Assembly: GCA_025359885.1 (NCBI GenBank)
Contig: JANYDG010000106.1
Span: 1 to 64,000 of the forward strand
Length of the DNA: 64,000 nt
Reading direction: 5' to 3'
From: Acidobacteriota bacterium
GTDB lineage: Bacteria; Acidobacteriota; Terriglobia; Terriglobales; Acidobacteriaceae
Both the position numbers and the translations under genes were made by a program. Positions 25,675-26,005 of the stretch are shown here, piece after piece. Each line of letters starts with the position of its first letter. Position 1 is the stretch's first letter. The notes beneath the pieces are model-generated. The model searched no databases. It was given only the letters and a program-made list of their open reading frames with translations, and was not told the DNA's origin.

Positions 25675-25704
25675 TTGACTTTCCCCGGGGTCGGGGGGAA
25701 TACT
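25675..25704 (+). promoter_or_regulatory. Candidate promoter of the metY leader transcript
   Basis: TTGACT (25675-25680) and AATACT (25699-25704) are separated by 18 bases, a fair sigma-70-type match. A start near 25711 would begin right at the ATG of the leader ORF at 25712, giving a leaderless message. No plus-strand gene lies upstream that could otherwise feed the terminator at 25834. Confidence 0.5.
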
Positions 25705-25711
25705 GGGTGGG

Positions 25712-25810
25712 ATGTTGATTGCTCGCCAGACCGGGATTGTCCATTGCGCCATGTGTATGTGCATGCGTGAGGGATTCGTGTCCGTGGCGGGGAGCATGCG
25801 AAAGCGGTAA
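25712..25810 (+). CDS. Cys/Met-rich leader peptide of metY-metX
   Basis: A 32-codon ORF too short for the track. Codons 12-18 read Cys-Ala-Met-Cys-Met-Cys-Met (HCAMCMCMREG): three Cys and three Met in seven codons, a density very unlikely by chance. The ORF ends 23 bases before a strong intrinsic terminator, and the genes beyond it make homocysteine. This is the layout of a ribosome-mediated attenuator in which slow decoding of Cys or Met codons lets transcription pass. No good Shine-Dalgarno sequence precedes the ATG; a leaderless start is possible. An inner start at ATG 25751 (MCMCMREG) is an alternative. The peptide itself probably has no other role. Confidence 0.7.
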   Translation: MLIARQTGIVHCAMCMCMREGFVSVAGSMRKR

Positions 25811-25846
25811 TTCGCAGCAGATTTCAGCCAGAGCGGCCCGAGTCCC
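25771..25846 (+). promoter_or_regulatory. Candidate antiterminator pairing before metY
   Basis: GGGATTCG (25771-25778) inside the leader ORF can pair with CGAGTCCC (25839-25846), the 5' arm of the terminator, giving eight pairs with one G-U. The helix extends through a bulge and a mismatch with CCG (25782-25784) and CGG (25834-25836). This pairing excludes the terminator hairpin. A further pair of GCATGC words (25761, 25794) can form a competing hairpin around the antiterminator strand. Pairing was worked out by eye, without energy calculation. Confidence 0.55.
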
Positions 25847-25876
25847 TGATACGGATTCGGGCCGTTTTGTTTTTTT
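25834..25876 (+). terminator. Strong intrinsic terminator in the metY leader
   Basis: CGGCCCGA-g-TCC-loop-GGA-t-TCGGGCCG forms an 11-pair stem at 25834-25864, followed by TTTTGTTTTTTT. It is oriented with the plus strand. The only upstream coding sequence on that strand is the 32-codon Cys/Met leader. The metY start lies 130 bases further on, so this is most likely a conditional terminator and not the end of an operon. Confidence 0.88.
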
Positions 25877-25880
25877 GGGG

Positions 25881-25966
25881 CTAGCGGGTTAGCGAGTCAG
25901 CAAATTAGCGGCTATTGTGGTTGGGACGTGGGGAGAAGCGGATCCTTCGCTTTGCTCAGGATGACC
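25881..25966 (+). repeat. Two interspersed repeat elements between the terminator and metY
   Basis: 25881-25911 is built of TAGCGGGTTAGCGAGTCAGC-like words, also found inside metX at 27658-27698. 25941-25966 (GATCCTTCGCTTTGCTCAGG) recurs at 42594-42619 with one change in that segment. Both are short families scattered between genes. Confidence 0.6.
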
Positions 25967-26005
25967 AAGGCAGTGTGAAGTACAGAAAATCTGGAGGAGA
26001 TTGAG

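Follow-up and report, generated by a model that had tools for sequence, protein, structure and literature searches.

A predicted ribosome-mediated attenuator with methionine and cysteine control codons upstream of metY-metX in Acidobacteriota

What decides whether metY and metX are transcribed in this acidobacterium, and why does an intrinsic terminator stand before them? In the window, the whole 64,000-nucleotide stretch of DNA analysed here, metY (O-acetylhomoserine/O-acetylserine sulfhydrylase, positions 26006–27334) and metX (homoserine O-acetyltransferase, 27430–28629) were identified by NCBIfam profiles above cut-off (NF006096 and TIGR01326 for metY, NF001209 for metX), confirming both assignments of the original prediction. 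By sequence reading, metY has a Shine–Dalgarno site, GGAGGAG, at 25993–25999; the promoter, leader, terminator and met genes described here all lie on the forward strand. The strong terminator proposed upstream was borne out as a 17-bp stem with a 7-nt loop (5′ arm 25829–25845, 3′ arm 25853–25869) and a T-tract that runs until about 25876. Its predicted pairing probability in the full transcript is 1.0, and the leader and terminator RNA together fold 4 standard deviations better than shuffled sequences. Because the upstream neighbour is a divergent gene encoding an Ig-domain protein, the terminator has, as originally noted, nothing to end except a short leader open reading frame (ORF). We put the probability that metY-metX is under a ribosome-mediated transcription attenuator, as read from the sequence and from fold models, at roughly 0.88. 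Between the terminator and metY also lies one copy of a 25-nt dispersed repeat, GATCCTTCGCTTTGCTCAGGATGAC (25941–25965); the other copy in the window is at 42594–42618, and a similar motif occupies the corresponding position in two relatives (L005 and L006).

The leader ORF spans 25712–25810 and its 32 codons translate as MLIARQTGIVHCAMCMCMREGFVSVAGSMRKR. Codons 12–18 (25745–25765) read Cys-Ala-Met-Cys-Met-Cys-Met, with three Met and three Cys codons. The Met/Cys string HCAMCMCM had been placed at codons 12–18; its codons are as described, and the full string occupies codons 11–18. Across all six frames of the window, this run is the sole case of at least six Met/Cys in seven codons, and 20 mononucleotide shuffles of the window yielded no such stretch. 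An NCBIfam search with the leader peptide matched no family.

Within the genus, 14 of 15 genomes yielded a close metY gene, and within the family 91 of 300 did; we collected the regions upstream of these genes and put them in a common orientation. Against the possibility, raised with the original prediction, that relatives keep metY and lack the leader, 77 metY loci, spread over 24 genera of this family, carry a leader ORF with an in-frame run of Met/Cys codons between promoter and terminator. The leader peptide of the closest relative is MLIARHVGSVRRAMCMCMCMRGGPVPEAWSKRI, and others include MPNSRKAGIEVMAMCMCMPCGPVRAPHERQTR, MKKMSQSATLCCMCMCMCVRFVPLAERC, MFDVAHNTTMAMCTIIMCMCRGLWVARTSGGS and MKQTVQLMSMSMRMQMCIRGRLTLGLRLA. 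The spelling of the run has diverged across the family and outside the class (MSMRMQMC and MAMIMRMSM, for example), and a few of the 77 leaders have a weak or unusual run (L021, L040, L045 and L050). Five close metY loci (L031, L053, L059, L074 and L075) and three distant metY paralogues (L090–L092) are without a leader, and in two further genomes (L163 and L317) the leader is placed before hom of a hom-metY operon. Beyond the class, leaders before metY are present in three families, and a cultivated species, Terracidiphilus gabretensis S55, has one as well (on NZ_LAIJ01000012.1). An exact-pattern scan of 85,462 species returned 78 loci, 40 of them with metY downstream; among these 40, TTGAC stands at the −35 position in 39, and 38 are in records titled Acidobacteria or their genera. 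In four more of the 78, all acidobacterial, TTGAC is present and the searched stretch shows no metY signature, and the remaining 34 have neither TTGAC nor metY. The metY leader was also seen in metagenome-assembled genomes labelled Gammaproteobacteria (L300, DAHVFI010000109.1) and Gemmatimonadetes (L279, PLMM01000258.1), which may reflect transfer or misbinning.

Upstream of the leader, TTGACT (25675–25680) and AATACT (25699–25704), separated by 18 nt, form the sole sigma70-like site between 25300 and 26300 when both strands are searched; no second promoter before metY was found in this interval. The ATG of the leader follows AATACT by 7 nt, an arrangement that leaves no space for a Shine–Dalgarno site. 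We infer that transcription begins at or next to this ATG and that the message is leaderless, a class predicted to include about 13% of genes in Acidobacteria in a published survey (PMC3160421). In the 4.2 Mb genome, this promoter with an ATG 4–9 nt downstream occurs only three times. Most of the 77 related loci share TTGAC(A/G/T)-17/18-NATACT, and TTGACA-18-GATACT followed by an ATG 7 nt past the −10 box is the arrangement seen most often. The start codon is ATG in 76 of 77 loci and lies at exactly this distance in 46, a spacing peak that is partly by construction since the leader start was selected to fit the promoter.

The RNA of this region can adopt two exclusive sets of pairings. The terminator 5′ arm (segment 3) can pair either with the 3′ arm (segment 4) or with a strand inside the ORF, AGGGATTCG at 25770–25778 (segment 2), which complements 25839–25847. 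Both the positions and the complementarity first proposed, GGGATTCG beginning at 25771 and CGAGTCCC beginning at 25839, proved correct. In the minimum-energy fold, segment 2 is also part of the 3′ arm of a protector hairpin, in which 25732–25754 (segment 1) pairs with 25761–25778; segment 2 would therefore pair with either segment 1 or segment 3. Consensus folds of most subgroups likewise contain a hairpin around the codon run whose 3′ arm includes the antiterminator strand; it is formed, for instance, by GCCCACA with TGTGGGT in one subgroup and by CTCTCCAG with CTGGAGA in another.

At nearly every locus, a strand just past the codon run complements the loop side of the terminator 5′ arm; it mostly begins 25–30 nt past the first control codon. 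The terminator arms themselves vary (CGGGTCC, CGGATCC, CGGACCC, CACGGTC, CCCACGG and CCCGCAG), and the leader strand varies in step. Since a single alignment of all loci is poor for detecting covariation across these terminator types, we compared the complementarity of each leader strand to its own arm with that to permuted arms. The own arm was favoured with z = 8.3 and none of 20,000 permutations in 75 loci, a z inflated by the relatedness of the loci; with one locus per genus, the mean z was 3.7 (range 2.4 to 4.7) and the mean p 0.0007. Duplex energies over longer arms gave a weaker contrast (32 of 77 loci at p 0.05 or less), and RNAalifold on a 16-sequence group found little covariation support. 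The terminators of the metY loci were matched by none of 385 shuffles.

In the mechanism that we infer, from start site and translation to stalling, sensed amino acids and regulatory direction, RNA polymerase would start at or next to the leader ATG and the leader would be translated as a leaderless message. With Met-tRNA, and probably also Cys-tRNA, plentiful, the ribosome would clear the Met/Cys codons and depart, the protector (1:2) and terminator (3:4) would form, and transcription would stop before metY. With charged Met- or Cys-tRNA scarce, a ribosome stalled on the run would hide segment 1 and expose segment 2, which would then pair with the terminator 5′ arm (2:3) and permit read-through into metY-metX. 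A stalled ribosome thus probably switches the genes on when Met or Cys is short.

We modelled this by folding the emerging transcript as far as the terminator loop, with everything to 13 nt past the A-site hidden under a ribosome. When the A-site holds the first control codon, the mean predicted pairing of strand and arm across the 77 loci rises from 0.48 to 0.78, increasing in 42 loci and falling by more than 0.1 in none. Pairing exceeds 0.5 in 74 of the 77 loci with the ribosome in this position and in 41 of 77 in its absence, the latter despite the protector hairpin found in the window and most subgroups. At the last control codon the mean is 0.54, because a ribosome there begins to cover the antiterminator strand. 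The values for the window are 0.30 with no ribosome, 0.76 at the first codon and 0.51 at the last; as far as folding can tell, this fits the earlier proposal that a ribosome held at the Cys/Met codons frees the strand. Its counterpart, that a ribosome at the stop codon covers the strand, did not hold: the stop lies about 30 nt beyond the antiterminator, and a ribosome at 25808 would cover about 25791–25820 and miss 25771–25778. Given these distances, it is more likely that the protector hairpin re-forms once the ribosome has passed.

The codon statistics of the metY leaders bear on whether the ORF is coding. Met makes up 14.5% of codons in frame 0 versus 0.3% and 1.0% in the other frames, and Cys accounts for 10.4% in frame 0, with synonymous variation between TGC (140) and TGT (91). 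In the 16-sequence group, gaps within the ORF are 3 or 6 nt, and gaps past the stop are of any length. All 77 leaders have at least one Cys and 76 have an internal Met. Because a metY leader from another class, MTNATLPTMAMIMRMSMRKLWVRSLAERST (L236), has no Cys codon and a leader before cysK-cysE, MILTSSIMPCCCCLCICTCVPRAD (L169), is Cys-rich, the metY signal is probably a Met core with Cys added. The MetY family is named for both O-acetylhomoserine and O-acetylserine as substrates, which would suit dual sensing of Met and Cys.

The original prediction placed this device before metY in an acidobacterium, which stands; the design is, however, confined neither to metY nor to this clade. A covariance model built solely from metY leaders was run against 397 genomes from the order and 396 from the phylum, with partial matches to the terminator end set aside as ordinary terminators. 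It found more metY leaders, and in the window's own genome the metY leader alone scores well. Four matches (L172, L230, L233 and L237) were rejected as false.

Candidate leaders built in this way also stand before siroheme synthase-cysD-cysN (L162), ssuACB (L166), sulfite or nitrite reductase with siroheme genes (L168, L170 and L173) and cysD-cysN-cysH (L171 and L177). Beyond sulfur metabolism, a Tyr leader, MNLMHSYYAYYYASDAGRGWRPMR, precedes a phenylalanine 4-monooxygenase (phenylalanine hydroxylase) gene (L174), a His leader, MSSLHLHHGHSHYHAESVLAAVSGVAK, precedes hisI-hisG-hisD (L178), a Trp leader, MTTSIRYAWWWYASLREVATD, precedes trpE (L238) and an Ile/Thr-rich leader precedes an aspartokinase gene (L234); His-codon leaders stand before matching biosynthetic genes at two more loci (L227 and L231). 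Antiterminator complementarity is visible in several of these non-metY leaders, of which there are single or few examples per gene type. Their control codons follow the pathway downstream, with Cys codons also before cysDN. One element (L175:199–339, genome G109), with Cys/Met codons, MPVSAARNSMCMCCCMCGRAGMGN, and a terminator, lies directly upstream of a tRNA-Cys(GCA) gene detected by ARAGORN (L175:345–420), which suggests that this gene may be attenuated according to the shortage of its own charged product. Met/Cys leaders were also observed before a conserved pair encoding a RimK-like ATP-grasp protein and a luciferase-like monooxygenase (L123, L167 and L176), suggesting a role for this pair in sulfur assimilation. 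At three loci (L124, L165 and L161), a Met/Cys leader and terminator stand before the gene of a short protein that is uncharacterised, lacks any Pfam match and has two CxxC-like pairs.

The arrangement of the Met codons themselves raises the strongest of the competing explanations. Met alternates strictly in the 77 metY leaders, with M-x-M seen 157 times against 73 expected and M-M twice against 88, and a plain attenuator gives no explanation for this near-absence of adjacent Met codons; a simple charging sensor would do equally well with tandem codons, which do occur in the Cys, Tyr and Trp leaders. Both M-x-M and C-x-C are patterns known from metal ligands. The leader might therefore be translated and control the terminator with the nascent Met-x-Met/Cys peptide sensing copper(I), thiol or redox and arresting the ribosome in place of tRNA charging. 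We regard this as improbable: x is variable (Cys, Ala, Arg, Pro or Ser), the run differs in length and register across leaders, and the match of His, Tyr, Trp and Cys leaders of like architecture to the pathway amino acid is simply explained by charging.

It is more doubtful still that the ORF makes a small Cys/Met-rich peptide that is itself functional and has a terminator of its own, with metY expressed from elsewhere. Promoter, ORF and terminator do make up a complete transcription unit. Against this, the placement beside sulfur genes is constant, no second promoter was found before metY between 25300 and 26300, the strand that follows the run is tied to the terminator arm, and the remainder of the peptide is poorly conserved. 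Outside the run, coding conservation is weak, as expected if only the control codons and the RNA structure matter, and substitution counts by codon position are weakly coding-like. A riboswitch, T-box or protein operator could instead account for the conservation, with the ORF incidental, and SAM riboswitches or T-boxes do serve met genes in many bacteria (PMC4239095, PMC2965389); this explanation is less credible again, as conservation is frame-locked to the Met codons with varying bases between them, and an Rfam search at gathering and loose thresholds gave no credible family match, including to SAM riboswitches and T-boxes. A plain terminator behind a chance Met/Cys run, to which ATGTGCATGTGC lends itself as a simple repeat that yields Cys in a second frame as well, is already refuted by the comparative data, since the run is conserved, in diverged spelling, in 24 genera and also beyond the class.

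The bacterial systems known to govern methionine supply are SAM riboswitches, T-boxes and repressors, and a ribosome counting Met codons to control methionine is, to our knowledge, new. The predicted attenuator shares its plan with the trp, his, thr and phe attenuators of enterobacteria, in which a leader ORF with control codons and exclusive protector, antiterminator and terminator pairings likewise precede biosynthetic genes. It differs in its Met (and Cys) codons, the alternation of Met in place of tandem codons, and the predicted leaderless start; it comes from a different phylum, and no sequence relation is expected.

Cys leader peptides before cys operons in Mycobacterium and cbs in Bifidobacterium similarly place a short ORF with Cys codons ahead of sulfur genes, but these actinobacterial leaders have no conserved terminators and carry Cys near the stop only, and no Met element was found (PMC1262725). 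In Rhodobacterales, uORFC-8-2 combines Cys codons with a following intrinsic terminator, and ribosome-mediated attenuation has been proposed; unlike the metY leader, it has two tandem Cys codons, lies before cysS and belongs to Alphaproteobacteria (PMC8632094). Alphaproteobacterial SAM-II and SAM-V riboswitches before metZ/metY also control this enzyme step from the 5′ leader, by binding SAM directly and with no leader peptide (PMC9373788, PMC6061858); the metY leader gave no Rfam match. Ribosome-mediated attenuation and Cys leader ORFs are established, and the predicted Met-sensing, acidobacterial case is new as far as we know. Consistent with the earlier view that this combination was undescribed, our search of an open-access collection turned up neither a leader-peptide attenuator for methionine nor any system of this kind in Acidobacteriota. 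A broad survey had predicted almost no attenuators with an assigned function in Acidobacteria (PMC2965389).

On balance, and with distinctly less assurance than for metY-metX itself, we favour a wider picture in which Acidobacteriota use leader-peptide attenuators across the phylum, mostly predicted to be leaderless, for Met, Cys, His, Tyr, Trp and probably Thr. These would include the first that senses methionine and one in front of a tRNA-Cys gene, and the rule of Met at every second codon may reflect an unknown limit on how AUG runs are read. If this is true, the tRNA-Cys gene would itself be transcribed more when Cys-tRNA runs short. The metY leader is open to experiment since the cultivated T. 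gabretensis has one. The control codons of such leaders would predict the function of downstream genes, unknown ones included, and together they would supply a regulatory logic for sulfur amino acids in a soil phylum that ranks among the most abundant and the least understood.
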